A stretch of DNA of 28,408 nucleotides from a virus. How positions within the stretch are numbered: the first letter of the stretch is position 1; each line of letters opens with the position of its first letter. The stretch spans positions 1 to 28,408 of the IMG/VR virus record IMGVR_UViG_3300031758_000433; one strand, written 5' to 3'. The notes beneath the pieces were generated by a model, which saw only the letters and a list, made by a program, of their open reading frames with translations, was not told where the DNA came from and ran no database searches. Made by a program: the position numbers and the translations under genes. Shown here one piece after another: positions 2,053 through 25,067 of this stretch.

Positions 2053-4461
2053 ATGTCGCTAAACTTAGTATCACCAGGCGTAAAGGTCAGAGAAGTTGAT
2101 CTTACTGTAGGCAGAATCGATGCAGTAAATGATCAAGTTGCAGCAATCGCCGGCCCATTTCTTAGAGGACCTATTGGACAACCAGTTCTAGTAGAGACCG
2201 AACAGGATCTTTTAAACACATTCGGCAAACCATCTAATACTGATGGTCAGTATGAATATTGGTTAACTGCATCCTCATATCTCTCTTATGGAGGAACATT
2301 AAGAGTTATTAGATCAGATGATGATGAATTAATCAACGCACATGCAGGTGTTGGTGGAAGTGCCGTAACTCTAAAAATAAAATCACAAGAAGATTATCAA
2401 AATAATTATACAAGTTCAACCGGATGGTTTTTTGCTTCTAAAGAAGCAGGATCTTGGGCTAATGGATTGAAAGTTTGTGTAATTGATAGTGCTGCAGACC
2501 AAAGAGTTTCTATTGGTACTTTTGGTTTAGCTGTAGGTTATGCTATGACTTGCGGAGTCAGCACTTCATATGTAACTTCTTCAGGAACTGTAGAAACTTT
2601 CAATGGATACATCAAGGGAATTATTACAAAAGTTAATGTTGGTAGTGTGGATGTAAAAATTGTAAGTAGACATGATTCAACTACCGGATTAAGTACTTCC
2701 GTTTCATATCAAACAAATGGACTCAATAAAATATTTCAACAACCAGAAGGTGAGGGAAGTATTTACTATCAAGTCTTTAATAATGTAGGAACTGCTACTT
2801 CCCTAGAGAAGTTTAGAATTTCTAATGCAGCTACAATCGGAATCGGATCTACTGTAGTAGCAACTACCGCTTCAATATCAAATAATGTTGAAGTTGGTGA
2901 TTTAATTCAATCACTGAATAGTACATTTAAAGCAAGAGTGGTTGGACTAGCAACTGGTCAAATCATCGTAGATACAGTTTCTCCTGTTGCGCTTGCAGCT
3001 ACAACTTTAGTTGTAACCTATGTCAGAAATTCTATAGATGGAACTTTAAGTAGAGGTGAGGGGTTACTTCCTAATAGTGATCTTAATTCAGTAGTCGATT
3101 GGTATGATCAACAGACTTTAGGATTAACTAATTCTACTGTATTTTGGAAAAACATTGCTCCTAGACCAGGAACATCTCAGTATACCGACTCAAGAAATGG
3201 AAAAAATGATGAGGTACACGTAGTTGTAGTCGATGATAGTGGATCCGTTTCTGGAATATCTGGTAACATTCTAGAGAAATTTACCAATCTGTCAAAAGCT
3301 ACAGACGCCAAAATTACTCCAAGTGAAAATATTTACTATAAGACATATATTCAAAATAATTCAGAATATATTTACGCTGGCGAAGTAGATGCTTTACTTT
3401 CTCCTTCATTCACATCCCTGGATGGTTATGTATTATCCAGTGGAGGGTCAATCGCTTGGGGTCAGGAAGCAAATTCAACTACTTTTGGACTTTCTGGTGC
3501 AAAAACTTATTCATTACAAAATGGCCACAACTATGGAGCTGGTAATGGATATTCTGTGAGTCTGGCAAATATCCTAAGTTCTTATGATATACTATCAAAC
3601 CCAGCAGAATATAATATAAACTTTATTCTCGGTGGTCCAAGTGGTGGAGAAACAATCTTTGATTCTCAAGCAAAAGCAAATAAACTTATTTCCATTGCAG
3701 AATCAAGAAAAGATTGTGTAGTAACCATATCCCCACACAGAAGTGGTGTTGTAAATGTAACCAATAGTGATACCCAAACATCGAACATAATTAATTTCTA
3801 CGATTCAGTATCTTCAAGTTCTTATGCAGTATTTGATTCTGGATTCAAATACATGTTCGATAGATTTAATAATCAGTTTAGATATATCCCATTGAATGGA
3901 GATATTGCTGGACTCATGGCAAGAACATCTATTAATAATTATCCATGGTTCTCCCCAGCAGGAGCTGCAAGAGGAACTATCAACAATGCGGTTAAACTTG
4001 CATACAATCCAAGTCAAGGTCAAAGGGATCTTCTTTATCCTAAGAGAATTAATCCAGTTATTTTCTCTCCTGGATCCGGAATTATTCTTTTTGGTGATAA
4101 AACAGGACTTTCTTATTCATCAGCTTTTGATAGAATAAATGTTCGTCGTCTATTCCTAACCATCGAAGAGACCATTGAAAGAGCTGCAAGAGCCCAACTA
4201 TTCGAATTCAATGATGCTGTAACAAGATCAAACTTCTTGAATATTGTTGAACCATATCTCCGTGATGTAAGGGCAAAGAGAGGTATAACAGACTTCTTAG
4301 TTATTTGTGATGAATCCAATAATACTCCAGATATTATTGATTCAAATCAATTTAGGGCTGATATTTTTGTAAAACCAGCACGATCAATTAACTTTGTTGG
4401 TCTAACTTTTGTTGCTAACAGAACTGGAGTTAGCTTCGAAGAGATTGTCGGAACCGTTTAA
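2053..4461 (+). CDS. 18: Contractile tail sheath protein gp18
   Basis: Forms the contractile sheath around the tail tube. At 802 residues it is longer than T4 gp18 (659), with the extra length in the middle, as expected for the variable protruding domains. The N-terminus (SPGVKVREVDLT) and the C-terminal block (RAKRGITDFLVICD, NNTPDIID, VKPARSINF, RTGVSFEE) are the most conserved parts of the sheath family and match well. The middle (about residues 100-450) is rich in S, T, G and V and likely beta structure. A purine-rich stretch (GAGGGAAAG) precedes the ATG. A late promoter lies just upstream, and the tube gene follows after 41 bases. Confidence 0.96.
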   Translation: MSLNLVSPGVKVREVDLTVGRIDAVNDQVAAIAGPFLRGPIGQPVLVETEQDLLNTFGKPSNTDGQYEYWLTASSYLSYGGTLRVIRSDDDELINAHAGVGGSAVTLKIKSQEDYQNNYTSSTGWFFASKEAGSWANGLKVCVIDSAADQRVSIGTFGLAVGYAMTCGVSTSYVTSSGTVETFNGYIKGIITKVNVGSVDVKIVSRHDSTTGLSTSVSYQTNGLNKIFQQPEGEGSIYYQVFNNVGTATSLEKFRISNAATIGIGSTVVATTASISNNVEVGDLIQSLNSTFKARVVGLATGQIIVDTVSPVALAATTLVVTYVRNSIDGTLSRGEGLLPNSDLNSVVDWYDQQTLGLTNSTVFWKNIAPRPGTSQYTDSRNGKNDEVHVVVVDDSGSVSGISGNILEKFTNLSKATDAKITPSENIYYKTYIQNNSEYIYAGEVDALLSPSFTSLDGYVLSSGGSIAWGQEANSTTFGLSGAKTYSLQNGHNYGAGNGYSVSLANILSSYDILSNPAEYNINFILGGPSGGETIFDSQAKANKLISIAESRKDCVVTISPHRSGVVNVTNSDTQTSNIINFYDSVSSSSYAVFDSGFKYMFDRFNNQFRYIPLNGDIAGLMARTSINNYPWFSPAGAARGTINNAVKLAYNPSQGQRDLLYPKRINPVIFSPGSGIILFGDKTGLSYSSAFDRINVRRLFLTIEETIERAARAQLFEFNDAVTRSNFLNIVEPYLRDVRAKRGITDFLVICDESNNTPDIIDSNQFRADIFVKPARSINFVGLTFVANRTGVSFEEIVGTV

Positions 4462-17334: not shown

Positions 17335-19545
17335 ATGTCTGTTAATCACGAAGTCAAAGGTCATCTTGCCCGTCTCCTCGCTACTGAAGATCTGGTGGTG
17401 GAACACAAACACGTTCCCACTGCGTCTTTCAATGTGGATACTCGTGTCCTGATTCTCCCGATGTGGGAGAAGGCTTCTAACGTTGTCTACGATATGCTTG
17501 TTGGTCATGAAGTGGGTCATGCACTTTATACTCCTAACGAGGACTGGAGTGAAAAGTTTTCCATCCCACAACAATTTGTGAATGTTACGGAAGATGCTCG
17601 TATTGAAAAGTTGATGAAACGTAGGTATGCGGGTCTCAATAAGTGTTTTTATGCGGGTTATCGTGAACTTCACGAGGATGATTTTTTCCAAGTAAAGGAA
17701 GAAGATATTTCTAAGTTTAATCTTGCAGATCGTGCCAATCTTTACTTTAAGATTGGTAACTACATTGATATACAGTTTAATCAGGAAGAACAAGAAATCA
17801 TCACTATGATTGGTGATGCAGAAACTTTTGATGAAGCGATTCAAGCTGCGGTAAAACTTTATGAGTACTGCAAGAAAGAACAGGATCAACAAATGAAGAT
17901 TGATTCTATTGATACAGTGGAACAAAATTCTGGAAACAGTTCAGAACCTTCCTCAGAACCCCAAGAAGAATATTCGGATCAGAATACACTTGAAACCTCT
18001 GGTGAAGGTGGCCAGACTCCTTCTGATGGTGAATCGGGGGATGATATTGATCAACCTTCTAAGGGAACTTCAAATCAGGGTGGAGAGACTTCTGATCCTA
18101 AAGTCCATACTGCAGATAATTTGGAAGAATCTATTCGAGATCTTGTCAACAGCTCTTCGTATGAAAATGTTTATGTGGAACTTCCCAAACTTAATCTAGA
18201 AACTGTCATTGCATCTAATTCTGAAGTTCATGATGAAATTAATGATTGGTGGAACAAATCAGTAGAATCTCTTAGTAAGAGTCAATCTAATGCTAAGGAA
18301 TTTTTGTTTGGAAAAATTGATAAAGATTTTCGAGAGTTCAAACGTTCTGCTCAGAAAGAAGTTAACTACTTGGTGAAAGAGTTTGAATGTCGGAAAGCTG
18401 CAGATTCATACGCTCGTTCCACTACTGCTCGTACTGGTGTTCTAGATTGTTCTAAACTTCATACTTATAAGTATAATGAAGATTTGTTCCGTAAGGTAAC
18501 CACTCTTGCAAACGGAAAAAATCATGGCCTAGTGTTTGTCCTGGACTGGTCTGGCTCAATGTCAAATGTGATGCAGGATACAATCAAACAACTTTATAAT
18601 TTGATTTGGTTCTGTAAGAAGGTTTCTATTCCCTTCGAAGTTTATGCATTTACTAATGAGTGGCGTCGTAGTACATATGACGAAAAGGGAAACTTTATGA
18701 GGATGGAACCACACTATCAAAAGAAATCTGGACTCATCTGTGTAGATGAAACATTTTCCATGATGAATCTTTTTACTAGTAAAGTAAATAATCGTGTTCT
18801 GGAAGAACAAATGATTAACATTTATCGCATTGCTAAAGAATTTAAGTATTCTTATAATGATGCTCCAATGTATAATACTCCGACTAGACTACTTCTTTCT
18901 GGAACTCCTTTGAATGAAGCTTTGATTGCAATGCATCAAATTTTGCCTAAGTTTCAAAAGGAAAATAAACTCCAGAAAGTTCAATGTGTAGTTTTAACCG
19001 ATGGTGAAGCTTGTTATATGAAGTTTCACAAAGAGTTTAAAAATCGTTCTGTTGATGGTGGAGAACCTTATATTGGATTGAACTCTCTTAATAGTCACCC
19101 TACTTTCATTCGTGATCGTAAAACTGGCTGTACTTATAAAGTACCATTTGAATTTCATCAATTTACGGACACTCTTCTTCAGAACCTTCGTGATCGTTTT
19201 CCTTCTGTGAATTTTATTGGTATGCGGGTTCTTGAAAATCGTGAAGCTAATTCTTTCATTCGTAAGTATTACGATAATTATGAATATAGTTCTGGTTATG
19301 CTCAAGACAATAAAGAATATGTAAAAATCATGAATGATTGGAAAAAGAATAAATCTTTTTCAATTAAAAATTCTGGTTATCATTCTTACTTTGGCCTTTC
19401 TGGTTCGGCACTTTCTCAAGATTCTGAGTTTGATGTTCATGAATGTGCAACAAAATCCCAAATTAAATCTGCATTCGCAAAGTCTCTAAAGAGTAAGAAG
19501 ATGAATAAAAAAATTCTTGGTGAGTTTATTGATCTTGTTGCTTGA
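17335..19545 (+). CDS. HEVGH metallopeptidase-like and VWA domain protein (CobT-like)
   Basis: A 736-residue protein of four parts. Residues 1-120 hold GHEVGHALYTP (H58, E59, H62), the HExxH zinc-peptidase motif, followed by VTEDARIEKL (E86), a plausible third ligand as in gluzincins. Residues about 195-260 are an acidic, low-complexity S, E, D, G linker. Residues about 395-570 form a VWA domain with MIDAS residues D404-x-S406-x-S408 in LDWSGSM, T524 in GTPLNE and D556 in LTDGEA. The remainder is helical and basic. Acidic linker plus C-terminal VWA is the CobT layout; its expected partner, a CobS/MoxR ATPase, is encoded at 23964. The ATG at 17335 is the first after the terminator. Substrate is unknown, and cobalamin synthesis is not supported because CobN is not seen. 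Confidence 0.88.
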   Translation: MSVNHEVKGHLARLLATEDLVVEHKHVPTASFNVDTRVLILPMWEKASNVVYDMLVGHEVGHALYTPNEDWSEKFSIPQQFVNVTEDARIEKLMKRRYAGLNKCFYAGYRELHEDDFFQVKEEDISKFNLADRANLYFKIGNYIDIQFNQEEQEIITMIGDAETFDEAIQAAVKLYEYCKKEQDQQMKIDSIDTVEQNSGNSSEPSSEPQEEYSDQNTLETSGEGGQTPSDGESGDDIDQPSKGTSNQGGETSDPKVHTADNLEESIRDLVNSSSYENVYVELPKLNLETVIASNSEVHDEINDWWNKSVESLSKSQSNAKEFLFGKIDKDFREFKRSAQKEVNYLVKEFECRKAADSYARSTTARTGVLDCSKLHTYKYNEDLFRKVTTLANGKNHGLVFVLDWSGSMSNVMQDTIKQLYNLIWFCKKVSIPFEVYAFTNEWRRSTYDEKGNFMRMEPHYQKKSGLICVDETFSMMNLFTSKVNNRVLEEQMINIYRIAKEFKYSYNDAPMYNTPTRLLLSGTPLNEALIAMHQILPKFQKENKLQKVQCVVLTDGEACYMKFHKEFKNRSVDGGEPYIGLNSLNSHPTFIRDRKTGCTYKVPFEFHQFTDTLLQNLRDRFPSVNFIGMRVLENREANSFIRKYYDNYEYSSGYAQDNKEYVKIMNDWKKNKSFSIKNSGYHSYFGLSGSALSQDSEFDVHECATKSQIKSAFAKSLKSKKMNKKILGEFIDLVA

Positions 19546-19565
19546 GGGGGAAACCCCTCTTTTTT
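19544..19565 (+). terminator. Rho-independent terminator after the VWA gene
   Basis: Stem GAGGGG (19544-19549) / CCCCTC (19554-19559) with a GAAA loop and six T residues. The TGA stop of the VWA gene overlaps the stem's first bases. Confidence 0.92.
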
Positions 19566-19566
19566 A

Positions 19567-19573
19567 CTAAATA
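19567..19573 (+). promoter_or_regulatory. Late promoter (CTAAATA) for the repeat protein
   Basis: CTAAATA resembles the late box (six of seven bases of ATAAATA) and lies 22 bases before the ATG at 19596, directly after the terminator. It overlaps an 8-base inverted repeat AAATACTT (19569-19576) / AAGTATTT (19580-19587). Confidence 0.55.
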
Positions 19574-19595
19574 CTTACAAAGTATTTGTAAAAAA

Positions 19596-20882
19596 ATGGA
19601 CTTTAACGACCTGCAAAATCTGACAGAAGCTTATAACCAAGTTAATCAACAACTTGATGAAGCAGAAGGTTCTTATGGTGAAACTCCAAAGGCATATGCT
19701 GCAGCATCAAAAACCAAGATGACTGCAAAGAGAAAGCCTTTCCTCAAGAAAATGCTCAGAAGAACTAATCCTGCAGAAAGAAGGCCTGAGACTTCTCCAA
19801 GAAAAGGAATGACTGCTTCTGATAGAGAGGAAGCAAGAGCAGGTGCAGCACATGGTTCTCCTCGCGGTCATGATTATCCTTCAGAGGGTCCTGGTGGAAT
19901 TACTAAGAATCCTAAGAAACTCCGTAAGCAAAAAGCAATGGGTGAGTTTGCTAAAGAAGATTTTGAACTTTGGGTGGAGTCTCTTGTAGAAGAAGGTTAT
20001 GATCTATCCGAGTACACTTGGGATGACATGCTTGATATCTATGAAGCAGAAGGTTCTTACGGTAAGACACCTAAAGCAAGACAAGCAATGGGTAAACTTG
20101 CTATCGCAAGACGTGAGAAACCCGCAAGTGAGTATTCTCAGAAAGGTGAGAAGACTAAGAAAGTAAAGGCAATTGAGAAGCATACTCAGAGAATTGATAA
20201 TGGTCCTGATGCAGGAAATCGTGGTAAGAAATCTACTAAACCAAGATGGTCTGGTATGTTGGGTAAATCTGGTAGGGGTAAACTTGACCAAGATAGCAGA
20301 GATTATGCGAGAGATAGTGCTGTTGAGTACACTGCTGGTGGACACAAGCCAGGTCCTGGTACAGTAACCAAGAATCCTAAGAAACTCCGTAAGCAAAAAG
20401 CAATGGGTGAAATTGATGAAAGTTACAACACTTATCAAGTAGTTCTTTCGCATTTACTTGAGGAAGGATATGCTTCAAATGAAGAGTCTGCAGATAAAAT
20501 CATTCTTAATATGAGTGAATCTTGGTTTGCAGAAATTATTGAAGCACGTAGGATGGATACAGAAGGTTCTGATCGTGGAGATTCGGCTCGTGCGGAACGT
20601 GCAGAAAAAGCAAAATCTTCCTTTATGGCTGCGAAAAAAGGTAAAGAGACCAGACTAAAAGCAGGTATTACTAACCTTCAACATAAGGCTGAGAAAGAAC
20701 ACTCTAAGAACTTTCCTGGTTCAAGACAAGAACCAAAAGTAAAGGGTGAAAAAGAATCCCCAGAGGAAGAACAGAGAAGAAAGGCTACTCGTCATAACGA
20801 AAGAGTTATGAAACATGGATTTACCGAAAAGGAAAAGAAAGAATCAAAAGCGAGAGAAAAATATGATTCATCTAGAGATTGA
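19596..20882 (+). CDS. Modular acidic/basic repeat protein, candidate internal head protein
   Basis: 428 residues built from alternating acidic helical modules and long basic, probably disordered arms. Acidic modules are residues 1-27, about 116-155 (EDFELWVESLVEEGYDLSEY) and about 273-320. Basic arms contain KRKPFLKKMLRR and twice the segment TKNPKKLRKQKAMGE. Each acidic module ends in a site fitting gp21 prohead-protease specificity: LDE|A (E22), IYE|A (E150) and IIE|A (E316); LTE|A at E11 also fits. The first two junctions are followed by AEGSYG and the third by a related TEGSDRG. A leading short acidic helix cut off by gp21 is how T4 internal proteins are targeted to the head. Function as a DNA-associated internal protein is inferred. 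The first in-frame ATG after the terminator is used. Confidence 0.82.
   Translation: MDFNDLQNLTEAYNQVNQQLDEAEGSYGETPKAYAAASKTKMTAKRKPFLKKMLRRTNPAERRPETSPRKGMTASDREEARAGAAHGSPRGHDYPSEGPGGITKNPKKLRKQKAMGEFAKEDFELWVESLVEEGYDLSEYTWDDMLDIYEAEGSYGKTPKARQAMGKLAIARREKPASEYSQKGEKTKKVKAIEKHTQRIDNGPDAGNRGKKSTKPRWSGMLGKSGRGKLDQDSRDYARDSAVEYTAGGHKPGPGTVTKNPKKLRKQKAMGEIDESYNTYQVVLSHLLEEGYASNEESADKIILNMSESWFAEIIEARRMDTEGSDRGDSARAERAEKAKSSFMAAKKGKETRLKAGITNLQHKAEKEHSKNFPGSRQEPKVKGEKESPEEEQRRKATRHNERVMKHGFTEKEKKESKAREKYDSSRD
19905..20410 (+). repeat. 41-base perfect direct repeat inside the repeat protein gene
   Basis: The 41 bases at 19905-19945 and 20370-20410 are identical (starting AAGAATCCTAAGAAACTCCG and ending GGTGA), 465 bases apart and in frame. 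They encode KNPKKLRKQKAMGE. Related flanking repeats encode AEGSYG(E/K)TPKA near 19662 and 20046. Confidence 0.9.
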
Positions 20883-20893
20883 TTAAATAAATT
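20883..20893 (+). promoter_or_regulatory. Possible degenerate late promoter before the gene at 20916
   Basis: TTAAATAAATT contains TTAAATA and AATAAATT, each one base off the boxes seen elsewhere in the window. It overlaps the upstream stop region as other late boxes do. Distance to the GTG start is 22 bases. Confidence 0.35.
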
Positions 20894-20915
20894 ATTATAG
20901 TATTTGAGGTTTATT

Positions 20916-21875
20916 GTGGAGTTTTTTGAAAAAGATAAACATGTAAAATTTATTTTTGAGTTACAAAATGGACAACCACTTCAACTAACTTACTATTTGC
21001 AACCAAATAGTTTGAGGGAAAAGTGGTTGAATGAAGTTAAAACATATCTCAACCGAAGTAATGCATCACTCAATCTCAAAATATCAAATAAAAATTATTT
21101 ACATTTAAATGAATTAACTGAAAAAATAAACTCAATAGTGAAGGATATCAATACTGCATATAATTCTAATATGTTGAGTTTTTTGAGTGGAACGAGTGAT
21201 GCAAATAGGGAAAAACTGAATAGTTTACATGAAAAATTTGAAGAATATGGTGCGGATAAAAAATTATATCTTGGTGAAGATGTTCATAGACTTTGGTTGG
21301 ATTTAAATGAATGGATTCATGTAACAGAAGTTGCAATGGGTACAACTGTGAAAGATTTTCCAGAATACAGTGCCTTAGTGTCTGTTTATCCGCCATATGA
21401 TGGTAGGAGATTGGAAGAAAAAGATAAATTATTTTTAACTACTGATTTCTCGTGGGGGCATCTTTATCTCGGATATAACACCTTAGGTAAAGACTACATG
21501 CACGCTTGTCATGATGATGATGTTAGAGTTGTTACAAATAAACAAGTAAAAGTTCAACAAAGGTATAGTTCTGAGGTATGGCTTTGTTTTCAGAATAAAA
21601 CGTATTGCCAAAAAACAACTGAGTTACAATTCTATAAGTGGTATGAAACTATAGAACAAGAAGCTCAGGAAATAATTCCTATTGAGAATTTAAATGCTCT
21701 AGCTTTAGGTAGATATTTTCTTGGACATATTGTAATTGATGATGATCTGTTAAGATTTCATCCAATTGAGGACGATTGGTATTTTAATACTGAAGTTCAA
21801 AAAAGGTGGAACAATGAAGTCTTTTCTCAAATTAAAAGGGTAGTAGAAATTGAAATAGATGAACAAAATAATTGA
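20916..21875 (+). CDS. Conserved-looking protein of unknown function
   Basis: About 319 residues starting at GTG 20916, preceded by GAGG at 20906-20909 with good spacing; a TTG 12 bases upstream is less likely. I do not recognise a named family. The first half is helical and charged. The second half has a compact, likely beta-rich block with SWGHLYLGYNTLGKDYMHAC, CHDDDVRVV, and SSEVWLCFQNKTYCQ, which looks like a folded domain with paired cysteines and histidines (HACHDDD), possibly metal binding. The gene overlaps the next by 17 bases, so the two are probably translated together and work together. No signal peptide or membrane segment is visible. Confidence 0.72.
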   Translation: MEFFEKDKHVKFIFELQNGQPLQLTYYLQPNSLREKWLNEVKTYLNRSNASLNLKISNKNYLHLNELTEKINSIVKDINTAYNSNMLSFLSGTSDANREKLNSLHEKFEEYGADKKLYLGEDVHRLWLDLNEWIHVTEVAMGTTVKDFPEYSALVSVYPPYDGRRLEEKDKLFLTTDFSWGHLYLGYNTLGKDYMHACHDDDVRVVTNKQVKVQQRYSSEVWLCFQNKTYCQKTTELQFYKWYETIEQEAQEIIPIENLNALALGRYFLGHIVIDDDLLRFHPIEDDWYFNTEVQKRWNNEVFSQIKRVVEIEIDEQNN

Positions 21876-23871
21876 AACATTTATAGAAAACTCATTGGAG
21901 AATCAGTGGTATCCCCCAAATTCTTCAAAACAATTCAATGTATTTGACTCAGATTGGCCTTTTCTTCAAATAGATTTTTCTGATGACTTTGAAGAAATGC
22001 ATCAAGAATGCATTGATAATGATCATCTTTTTGTGGGTCATAGGCAGAAAGATAAACATCTAAGTTATTCTCATGAAGGTTGGTCTGCTTTAACTTTACA
22101 TGGAATACGTCCAGATGCTACTGAAAATTATGATCAATATGGACTGACTGAACCAGATTATGATTGGACAGAAGCTTGTGTATATTTTCCTACTTGCGTT
22201 AAATTTTTAAAAAAATTGGGATATGGTAGTTACGATCGAGTAAGGATCATGAAACTATCTCCTGGTGGATACATTATGCCACATTCTGATGGTGATGGTA
22301 GAATTTTTGGTCCTTTGAACATAGCAATTAATAATCCTGATGGATGTAATTTTTACTTTGAAAAATGGGGAAAAGTTCCTTTTAGTCAAGGGACAGGATT
22401 TTTTTTAGATATAGGAAATGTTCACGCTGTTTTTAATAATAGTGATGAACCTAGATATCATTTTATTGTTCATGGATCTATTAATAATAATTTAATACAA
22501 ACAGCATTTGATCAACTTAAAACTCGAAAGAAACGGGTATGTTACGGGGTTTATAATCAACGAAATAGGATTAATAATTTTTCGATGTACCTAAGATCCA
22601 AAGGTGCAACCTTATTTTATCTCAACAGATCTAGAAGTAATGTAGATATAATTTGTGGAGATGAAATACATGAGATATTGAATGAAGCTTTAATTAAAAA
22701 ATATGAGTATTGTGTGATTCAATCTTCTGGATGTACTTTGAAGAGTTTTGATTATGATAAAGAAATTAGAGATTTTATAAATGAAAATAATTTTGGTATA
22801 GCTGGACATATATTATCTTGGCCTGGGAGGTGGTTGGAATTACACCACCAATTTTTTATAGTCAACGTTTCTGCATGGAAAGAAGTTGGATGTCCGGAAT
22901 TTGGTGATTGGTGTTCTGAAGAACAATTATTACCTGTAGTTGAAAGAAGTATTGAAAACTTTCATGATGACTATACTCCATTGTGGGTTAAGTATTCAAA
23001 CAAACAAGAATACCAATCTAACGCTGGACAGGGTTGGAAACTTTTGAGTTCTATGTTTTTAAATGATTGGCCAGTAATAACTTTGAGCGAAAAATTACGT
23101 TTTAATAAGTTTTATTATTATCCAGAATTTAATACTGAAAAGTTTGAATCAAGTATTAAAACTTTAACTCCATATGAAGGTCAGAATTGGAATCAAGTAA
23201 AGTTGATAAATGATGCAAAATCAGTAAAAGATCAAATATGGTTATTTAATAGTGAATCAATGTCAATTAATAATGAAGGTAAGTTTAATTTAGTTGTAAA
23301 TACTGCAAGTGGATTTAAGTTGTTTGATATTTTTAAAAATAAAAAATTGGACTTAAATGGTAAAATTATTGTATATGATTTTAATATTAAAAGTATACAA
23401 TGGTATAAACACTTACATACATGGAAGACAAATGATATTGTAGAATGTATCAAATCTTTTTCCGAAAAGGATTATTTTACTTGGTTGGGGAAAACAGATC
23501 ACTCAAGATTTGTAATGGATCATAGTTTTGATTTATCAATCAAAGAACTTATGGACCATTTTGGTGGAACCGAATCATTTATTAAGTATTGGTCAGTCTT
23601 TAAAAAAACTCCTACAAAGTTTGTTGTTGCTGATTTGTATAAAGAATCTCAAAAGTTTGCAAATATTTTTGTTGGACCTGGGAAAAAATTTGTAAATCTT
23701 TCTAATATTTTTTCTACCGATGCTACCACTTTGTTATATGGACATACAGAAGTTCAGAGTTGTCAACAAAGATGTTTAGCTTCTTTGTATGTTGTTGATC
23801 CTGAAATAGAAGTTTCTATTTGTGACTTTTGGAATAGAAACATTTTTGGTAAAGTAAAAAATATCTTGTAG
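21859..23871 (+). CDS. Multidomain 2-oxoglutarate/Fe(II) oxygenase-like protein
   Basis: A 670-residue protein. Residues about 100-210 look like an aspartyl/asparaginyl beta-hydroxylase-type oxygenase: RIMKLSPGGYIMPHSDGDG gives the H142-x-D144 iron pair, NVHAVFNN gives the distal H189, and EPRYHFIVHG gives R199 for 2-oxoglutarate. Residues about 220-350 form a second region with KYEYCVIQSSG and GHILSWPGRWLELHHQFFIVN, of a type I cannot name securely, perhaps glycosyltransferase-like. Residues about 480-540 have a Rossmann-like run, VVNTASGFKLFDIF then GKIIVYDFNIKSIQWYKHL, reminiscent of class I methyltransferases but with a poor glycine loop. Substrate is unknown; modification of a protein, glycan or nucleic acid are all possible. 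No ribosome binding site is visible; the start overlaps the upstream gene. Confidence 0.78.
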   Translation: MNKIIETFIENSLENQWYPPNSSKQFNVFDSDWPFLQIDFSDDFEEMHQECIDNDHLFVGHRQKDKHLSYSHEGWSALTLHGIRPDATENYDQYGLTEPDYDWTEACVYFPTCVKFLKKLGYGSYDRVRIMKLSPGGYIMPHSDGDGRIFGPLNIAINNPDGCNFYFEKWGKVPFSQGTGFFLDIGNVHAVFNNSDEPRYHFIVHGSINNNLIQTAFDQLKTRKKRVCYGVYNQRNRINNFSMYLRSKGATLFYLNRSRSNVDIICGDEIHEILNEALIKKYEYCVIQSSGCTLKSFDYDKEIRDFINENNFGIAGHILSWPGRWLELHHQFFIVNVSAWKEVGCPEFGDWCSEEQLLPVVERSIENFHDDYTPLWVKYSNKQEYQSNAGQGWKLLSSMFLNDWPVITLSEKLRFNKFYYYPEFNTEKFESSIKTLTPYEGQNWNQVKLINDAKSVKDQIWLFNSESMSINNEGKFNLVVNTASGFKLFDIFKNKKLDLNGKIIVYDFNIKSIQWYKHLHTWKTNDIVECIKSFSEKDYFTWLGKTDHSRFVMDHSFDLSIKELMDHFGGTESFIKYWSVFKKTPTKFVVADLYKESQKFANIFVGPGKKFVNLSNIFSTDATTLLYGHTEVQSCQQRCLASLYVVDPEIEVSICDFWNRNIFGKVKNIL

Positions 23872-23894
23872 TGGACACTTTTTAAACTGGCACA
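23871..23894 (-). repeat. Inverted copy of the gp46-end hairpin motif
   Basis: Read on the - strand this matches 17254-17277 at 20 of 24 bases, with CAGTTTAAAAAGTGTC identical over 16. It lies immediately after the oxygenase stop. The palindromic arms are less perfect than in the first copy. Confidence 0.6.
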
Positions 23895-23896
23895 AT

Positions 23897-23920
23897 ACCC
23901 CTTTCTTCTGGGGTGGTTTT
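23897..23920 (+). terminator. Probable terminator upstream of the CobS-like gene
   Basis: Stem ACCCC (23897-23901) / GGGGT (23910-23914) with an 8-base loop, then GGTTTT. The stem is short and the T tract weak, so partial termination is likely. A TATTAT at 23925-23930 might be a -10 element for the next gene, but no good -35 is seen. Confidence 0.5.
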
Positions 23921-23963
23921 CGCGTATTATAGCTTCAGTTGAAACACACCACCCAACCACATT

Positions 23964-25067
23964 ATGCCTCGCAAATCTCCTGTGACTGACGAACAACTCA
24001 TTTCTGATCTCAAAAATCTCTATGGTACTGAAATTAGTGCTGGGGATATTCGAGGTTTCTGTGCCTCTCGTAATATGAATTACCAGACCGTAACTCGTCG
24101 TCTGGAATCTTTCAAGACTACTCGTGGTCGTTGGAATCTGGAAGTGACTCAAGAACGTGTTGAAGAGATTGAGCGTTCTTATCAAGCACCTGCCGTTCTT
24201 CCTGCCGCTGAACAAAACCTTATTCCTGATAAAGATGATACCTTCGTCAAGTTTGGTAACTTTAACGATATTAAAAAGATTATTCAGTCCCGTATCTTTT
24301 ACCCTGCGTTCATTACGGGTCTTTCGGGTAACGGTAAAACGTTCTCGGTTGAACAAGCGTGTGCTCAACTCAAACGTGAACTGATTCGTGTCAACATCAC
24401 GATTGAAACGGATGAGGATGACCTGATTGGTGGGTTCCGTCTTGTTGATGGTGCTACTGTTTGGCACAATGGTCCTGTGGTGGAAGCACTTGAACGTGGT
24501 GCTATTCTCCTATTGGATGAGATTGATCTTGCTTCCAACAAGATCCTGTGCCTTCAATCTATTCTGGAAGGTAAGGGTGTGTTCCTTAAAAAGATTGGTC
24601 GCTTTGTGAAACCTGCTTCTGGTTTCAATGTGATTGCCACCGCCAATACCAAAGGTAAGGGTTCTGATGACGGTCGATTTATTGGCACTAACGTTCTTAA
24701 TGAAGCTTTCCTTGAACGTTTCCCCGTGACCTTTGAGCAGTCTTATCCTGCTCCTGCAACTGAACAAAAGATCCTGGAAGGCGTTGCTCTGGATCTTGGT
24801 GTGAAAGACCGTGACTTCTGCAAGCGTCTGGTGGACTGGGCAGACATCATCCGCAAGACCTTCTACGATGGTGGTATTGAGGAAATCATCAGCACCCGTC
24901 GTCTGGTTCACATCATCCGTGCATACGGCATCTTCCAAGACAAAGCAAAGGCAATCCAAGTGTGCGTCAACCGTTTTGATGATGAAACCAAACAGTCCTT
25001 CCTGGAACTGTATGATAAAGTGGATGCTGATTTCCAGATGCCCATTGACCAGGAAACACAATCCTGA
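23964..25067 (+). CDS. cobS: CobS/MoxR-like AAA+ ATPase
   Basis: A 367-residue ATPase commonly annotated cobS in T4-like cyanophages. Walker A GLSGNGKT is at 119-126, Walker B ILLLDEID has D185-E186, sensor 1 N228 lies in IATANTK, and a candidate arginine finger R252 lies in NEAFLERF, followed by a helical lid with STRRLVHI. The MoxR-type insertion TIETDEDDLIGGFRLVDG precedes Walker B. The N-terminal 75 residues look like a helix-turn-helix-like adaptor (DIRGFCASRNMNYQTVTRRLESF). CobS normally works with CobT and CobN; only a CobT-like VWA gene (17335) is present, so a remodelling machine with another target is as likely as cobalt chelation. Codons are more GC-rich than in the two genes upstream. 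Confidence 0.93.
   Translation: MPRKSPVTDEQLISDLKNLYGTEISAGDIRGFCASRNMNYQTVTRRLESFKTTRGRWNLEVTQERVEEIERSYQAPAVLPAAEQNLIPDKDDTFVKFGNFNDIKKIIQSRIFYPAFITGLSGNGKTFSVEQACAQLKRELIRVNITIETDEDDLIGGFRLVDGATVWHNGPVVEALERGAILLLDEIDLASNKILCLQSILEGKGVFLKKIGRFVKPASGFNVIATANTKGKGSDDGRFIGTNVLNEAFLERFPVTFEQSYPAPATEQKILEGVALDLGVKDRDFCKRLVDWADIIRKTFYDGGIEEIISTRRLVHIIRAYGIFQDKAKAIQVCVNRFDDETKQSFLELYDKVDADFQMPIDQETQS

Follow-up and report, generated by a model that had tools for sequence, protein, structure and literature searches.

The window analyzed here is a 28,408-nucleotide stretch (positions 1 to 28,408 of IMG/VR virus record IMGVR_UViG_3300031758_000433), a fragment, 28.4 kb long, of a marine-type phage genome that is T4-like and of cyanophage type. 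It encodes a 736-residue VWA protein and, 4.4 kb downstream, a MoxR/CobS-type AAA+ ATPase. With a probability of about 0.6, we propose that the two form a remodelling machine of the AAA+/VWA type whose head is probably a zinc peptidase, rather than a system for B12 synthesis. The pair is real and conserved, has been partly described before, and is mislabelled in most records. The architecture itself is not new and the cyanophage pair was previously named; the new elements are a host-side test for CobN, a link to a decayed CobT, the replication context, and the spread on plasmids. The main features of the two genes are as follows.

17335..19545, + strand: HExxH-VWA protein, 736 residues, CobT-like (PHROG_459 'peptidase', E=2e-269)
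17335..17904, + strand: predicted N-terminal minigluzincin-like domain, residues 1-190 (AlphaFold, Foldseek, recurrence of the domain in other VWA proteins of phages)
17506..17520, + strand: HEVGH, residues 58-62, with presumed zinc ligands H58 and H62 and catalytic E59 (HExxH invariance)
17581..17601, + strand: NVTEDAR, residues 83-89, with E86 as presumed third zinc ligand (N83, E86 and D87 invariance)
17902..18120, + strand: acidic, serine-rich disordered linker, residues 190-262 (composition and predicted local distance difference test, pLDDT)
18523..19254, + strand: VWA domain, residues about 397-640 (Foldseek match to NorD VWA and the MDN1 metal ion-dependent adhesion site, MIDAS)
18544-18558, + strand: MIDAS DxSxS, D404/S406/S408, with further MIDAS residues T524 and D556
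23964..25067, + strand: MoxR/CobS-type AAA+ ATPase, 367 residues (PHROG_249), starting 4.4 kb downstream
24318..24341, + strand: Walker A GLSGNGKT, residues 119-126
24507..24527, + strand: Walker B LLLDEID, residues 182-188
23964..24188, + strand: N-terminal extension of the ATPase, residues 1-75, helix-turn-helix (HTH)-looking, unproven

A preliminary description of this DNA had pointed to HEVGH, E86, the acidic linker, and a VWA domain with intact MIDAS in the 736-residue protein, and to a downstream ATPase with all AAA+ motifs. All are present, the latter in the open reading frame (ORF) at 23964-25067. The start ATG at 17335 is backed by alignment of relatives. Conservation was assessed in 125 IMG/VR viral loci, 117 of which have an intact N-terminus. 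HExxH is kept in 117/117 of these, the single apparent exception being a truncated protein that begins past the motif site, and NxxED is likewise found in all 117, N[IL]xED variants among them. Ten columns are invariant in 57 divergent N-domains (L15, P42, H58, E59, H62, T66, N83, E86, D87, and G100), six of them being H58, E59, H62, N83, E86, and D87. The gluzincin signature, an HExxH with a downstream Glu ligand, is present as H58-E59-H62...E86 and invariant across these 57 sequences. Since both synonymous codons are in use among relatives at H58, E59, H62, and E86, the identity of the metal-site residues does not stem from recent common descent. The linker contains 25% D/E vs 3% K/R, and pLDDT falls below 50 at residues 195-252 of the full-length AlphaFold model. 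The MIDAS residues D404/S406/S408, T524, and D556 are invariant in 55 relatives. Direct sequence searches of Pfam, NCBIfam, and PDB gave no significant match for the VWA protein.

The N-domain was modelled by AlphaFold with a pLDDT of 86.6, and its top seven PDB matches in Foldseek are ArdC and the minigluzincin selecase (ArdC, E 0.045, prob 0.97; M. jannaschii selecase, template modelling score by target up to 0.56). Most top matches suggest a zincin fold with prob 0.77-0.97 but weak E-values, 0.045 at best, yet for a predicted model the agreement among HExxH proteins is telling. ArdC and selecase are the closest solved folds and have the HExxH metal site in common with the head; they function without AAA+/VWA coupling, and their similarity to the head is weak (E 0.05-1.4). 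In BFVD, the same N-domain was recovered in phage 'CobT' and VWFA proteins, including those of haloarchaeal tailed viruses; PolyVal metallopeptidase and SprT domains came next, and these viral metallopeptidase matches lend support to a zincin fold. When modelled at full length (pLDDT 76), the protein matched the NorD VWA in NorQD complexes (E=5e-4) and the MIDAS of midasin (MDN1). The metalloprotease-like head suggested earlier is supported by the conserved HExxH...E and by the ArdC/selecase matches, and the head most likely binds zinc because the HExxH...E set is kept intact. An alternative is a purely remodelling machine whose HExxH domain holds metal only in a structural, sensing or carrier role. 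Cellular CobT and two mobile genetic element (MGE) lineages keep the domain without the histidines, and most of the characterised MoxR/VWA partners listed in PMC7159879 are described as assembly or remodelling factors. However, in phages E59, which is no zinc ligand in such sites, is conserved just as strictly as the two histidines, and we consider a pseudo-enzyme unlikely.

In addition to the Walker motifs, the ATPase carries sensor-1 ATANT and a sensor-2-like STRRL. It matches Pfam AAA_5 (E=4e-18) and CbbQ_C, and its closest PDB relatives are CobS, NorQ, and midasin. The window combines a MoxR-class AAA+ protein with all motifs and a linked VWA partner with intact MIDAS, the two parts expected of a MoxR two-component machine. 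NorQ/NorD, RavA/ViaA, and midasin similarly join a MoxR-class AAA+ to a VWA/MIDAS partner; no metallopeptidase-like head is described for them in the literature consulted, whereas the phage pair has one. For the N-terminus of the ATPase, Pfam and PDB matches to an HTH were weak and mixed (DUF2089 best, E=0.003, 9/28 members), and this assignment was left unproven. The ATPases of SSU5, pABTJ2, and nickie (L102, L103, L104) bear an N-terminal CxxC...H...H zinc-finger-like motif that is absent from the T4-like ATPases.

The two genes travel together. By tblastn, the VWA protein was detected in 463 phage records and the full-length ATPase in 458, with equal counts by record name (Synechococcus 365, Cyanophage 61, and Prochlorococcus 24). 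At 108 loci in the viral contigs, the ATPase gene follows downstream of the VWA gene in the same orientation, at most 4.7 kb away. Loci without a visible ATPase have <2 kb of sequence remaining, save L143, in which the ATPase is ~30 kb away on the contig; an AAA+ gene is present at every VWA locus with room to show it. VWA and ATPase divergence is correlated beyond gp44/45/46 controls with a partial r of 0.55-0.65, the partial correlation alone being informative as the mirror-tree correlation mostly reflects shared phage ancestry. In related phages the genes were not found independently of each other, in agreement with the paired machine of the preliminary description. Locus L143 also contains a B12-type (class II) ribonucleotide reductase-like ORF (2294-4231), 1.8 kb upstream of its VWA gene.

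The same arrangement with HExxH...ED was found in Pelagibacter, Ochrobactrum, Klebsiella, Rhizobium, Salmonella/E. coli SSU5-like, Roseobacter CRP-810, and Cobavirinae phages. The HExxH...ED protein also occurs on IncC plasmids, with the ATPase a few kb upstream. The motif is present in phages unrelated to the T4-like ones and in phage-plasmids as well. Relatives of the Vibrio ICP2 type and from Gordonia keep the HExxH, the confirmation covering this motif and not the downstream ED. In PLSDB, 1013 plasmids match the Rhizobium phage protein and 1075 match a V. fluvialis plasmid protein, 946 of the latter conjugative and mostly IncC-like, with some matches spanning the VWA part only. The CRP-810 query had no match in the viral contigs. 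No close relative has lost H58, E59, or H62; only two distant lineages differ, the Acinetobacter pABTJ2-type (QEVAK) and Pseudomonas phage nickie (SEISK) proteins, in which both histidines are gone together. Staphylococcus phage AAA matches were weak, with no HExxH-VWA neighbour among the ORFs examined, and were set aside. On IncC plasmid pNDM-1_Dok01 (L250, 1816-9809), the HExxH-VWA protein is encoded beside ssb-bet-exo-DUF3150 recombination genes, with the AAA+ gene ~5 kb upstream.

Gene neighbourhood was compared in ten element lineages (T4-like, SSU5, nickie, pABTJ2, Rhizobium, ICP2, Cobavirinae, CRP-810, IncC, and Gordonia), and replication or recombination neighbours were present in nine. 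In T4-like viral contigs, gp46 (with gp47) is upstream in 67/70 and gp45/gp44 are downstream in 46/51. SSU5, nickie, pABTJ2, and Rhizobium share the order DNA ligase, VWA, AAA+, dnaE; the ICP2-type pair is near a DNA primase, Cobavirinae have DNA polymerase and primase/helicase as neighbours, and IncC plasmids have ssb-bet-exo. The weakest of the nine is CRP-810, where the neighbour is a pyrimidine-dimer glycosylase, a repair gene. The exception is Gordonia Monty, with no replication or recombination gene nearby, an HNH endonuclease apart.

This context bears on the idea that the pair serves virion assembly or maturation as a chaperone and processing protease for structural proteins. Many head proteins are processed in T4-like phages. 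Iyer et al. 2021 (PMC7824862) described a MoxR and metallopeptidase-vWA pair in group 2.2 jumbo phages and proposed virion assembly by analogy with the MoxR-vWA in the Acidianus virus tail. Judged from their text description, that pair has the same two-gene architecture, with an N-terminal metallopeptidase fused to the vWA, but the context of the cyanophage pair points to the replication module instead. In nearly all lineages the genes lie in replication/recombination modules and not among virion genes, and relatives persist on ~946 conjugative plasmids, for the most part IncC-like, which do not form virions. In the cyanophage core of Sullivan 2010, cobS is one of 25 genes, and only two virion proteins are named, cobS not among them. 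A role in virion assembly is therefore improbable. The targets offered in the preliminary description (metal insertion, virion assembly, host proteins) were guesses, and the surrounding genes speak for the replication/recombination module rather than for virion genes.

The remodelling machine that we favour, of the MoxR (CobS/NorQ/midasin) class, would work as follows. By analogy with NorQD, the ATPase hexamer would dock the VWA protein via its MIDAS, and the acidic linker, long and disordered, would give the N-terminal domain the range to contact a client. The minigluzincin-type head, probably zinc-bound, might then cleave the client or grip an exposed peptide while the ATPase pulls. Judged by gene context, the client most likely belongs to phage replication, recombination, or host takeover, as a single protein or a complex. 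Several observations weigh against this proposal. In Foldseek, the head reaches a PDB E-value of 0.045 at best, which is weak, and its model is metal-free. Catalysis appears dispensable in the pABTJ2-type and nickie lineages, since both histidines are lost yet the pair is kept. Finally, gene neighbourhood is only circumstantial evidence, in which the whole T4-like lineage amounts to a single observation.

We probed the cobalamin connection from both the phage and the host side. CobN (PF02514) was absent from 19 related phage records (GenBank genomes of 15 named phages plus four viral contigs) and from the 28.4-kb record, itself a fragment; the S. meliloti positive control for this search worked, and a second control, Synechococcus elongatus, has a PF02514 protein. 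CobN was also absent from the genomes of Kluyvera, with an SSU5-like VWA gene, and Xenorhabdus, which carries the pair. As both have cobB/cbiA, B12 synthesis in these bacteria would proceed without CobN. None of 27 Pelagibacteraceae genomes (13 + 14) with CobT-like genes had CobN, marine cyanobacterial hosts being outside this per-genome test. These are partial single-cell genomes, yet absence in 27/27 is hard to explain by gaps. Similarly, cobB was found in 0/13 Pelagibacteraceae genomes tested, which alone is weak because the cobB test missed two alphaproteobacteria having CobN. The pair, HExxH included, is present in two phages of Pelagibacter ubique. The Pelagibacteraceae (SAR11; L156-L223) themselves keep CobT-like genes, most with an adjoining ATPase, and no CobN.

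The window VWA protein did not match the CobT domains PF06213 and PF11775. Distant HExxH relatives do pass these models, Xenorhabdus for both and IncC for PF06213, the Pfam CobT N-domain model. An MGE N-domain profile built without cellular CobT recovered 30/76 cellular CobT N-termini at E<0.01 and no shuffled decoys, and hhalign gave P of 1e-6 to 3e-9 for the same comparison. At the HExxH columns, cellular CobT has DSxAL or something close to it, with the downstream ExxRxE motif preserved. The heads are homologous, and from these unrooted sequence comparisons we infer that the HExxH was lost in cellular CobT. The aerobic cobaltochelatase CobS/CobT (S. meliloti; PDB 9uka, 21vu) has AAA+ and VWA subunits, an acidic linker, and a homologous N-domain in common with the phage pair, which differs in that no CobN partner was found for it and in retaining HExxH at the DSxAL position.

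Liu et al. 2021 (PMC8651126) named the cyanophage and haloarchaeal tailed virus genes cobST, called the 'peptidase' annotation of cobT a misannotation, and proposed CobN hijacking; these are the same cyanophage genes, and both the conservation of the HExxH domain and the search for CobN in hosts argue against the cobaltochelatase reading. That phage CobST borrows host CobN and raises B12, and with it class II ribonucleotide reductase, in infection would fit the CobS-like ATPase, the B12-type reductase gene near the VWA gene of L143, and the PF02514 protein of Synechococcus elongatus, but it is very unlikely given that no phage CobN was found, that the pair is kept in phages of CobN-less hosts (Pelagibacter, 0 CobN in 27 family genomes; Kluyvera; Xenorhabdus), that true CobT is without the HExxH that phages preserve, that the window ATPase scores 70 bits (E=2e-19) with the CobS equivalog model TIGR01650, far under its cut-off of 558.6 bits, and that the reductase-linked VWA gene of L143 is 30 kb from its ATPase. 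The 'cobalamin synthesis' label, which the preliminary description had suspected of being wrong, is poorly supported and misleading, and the pair is most likely not a cobalt chelatase.

The cobS gene is a core gene of T4-like cyanophages, serves as an ecological marker, and is classed among the B12 auxiliary metabolic genes. According to Clokie 2010 it came from bacteria that are not the hosts, and its function in phages was considered unknown in a 2023 study (PMC9983427). Should the pair prove to be a protease or remodeller acting on replication proteins, many interpretations of marine viral metagenomes in terms of B12 would be mistaken, and a machine widespread among MGEs would gain a testable job. 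More tentatively, phages, phage-plasmids, and IncC-type plasmids might share a split ATP-driven zinc protease servicing replication/recombination complexes, with CobT a descendant bearing a decayed head and the SAR11 CobST pair a non-chelatase. The decayed head of cellular CobT would then explain the origin of the chelatase subunit.

The gene order of the window runs from terminase, tail, portal, and head genes to gp55, gp47, gp46, the VWA gene, three insert ORFs, the AAA+ gene, gp45, and gp44. Names around the VWA/AAA+ region come from PHROG and Pfam, and the other genes were named by synteny with P-SSM2. The gap between the VWA and AAA+ genes is <500 bp in most relatives. One of the ORFs sited between the pair here is not part of the machine:

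19542..20882, + strand: Lys-rich, internally repetitive ORF (the only matches are PHROG families of unknown function)

The sequence TKNPKKLRKQKAMGE is present twice in this ORF. A 670-residue ORF (21859-23871), also inserted between the VWA and AAA+ genes, has an N-terminal aspartyl/asparaginyl beta-hydroxylase domain (PF05118, E=7e-9).

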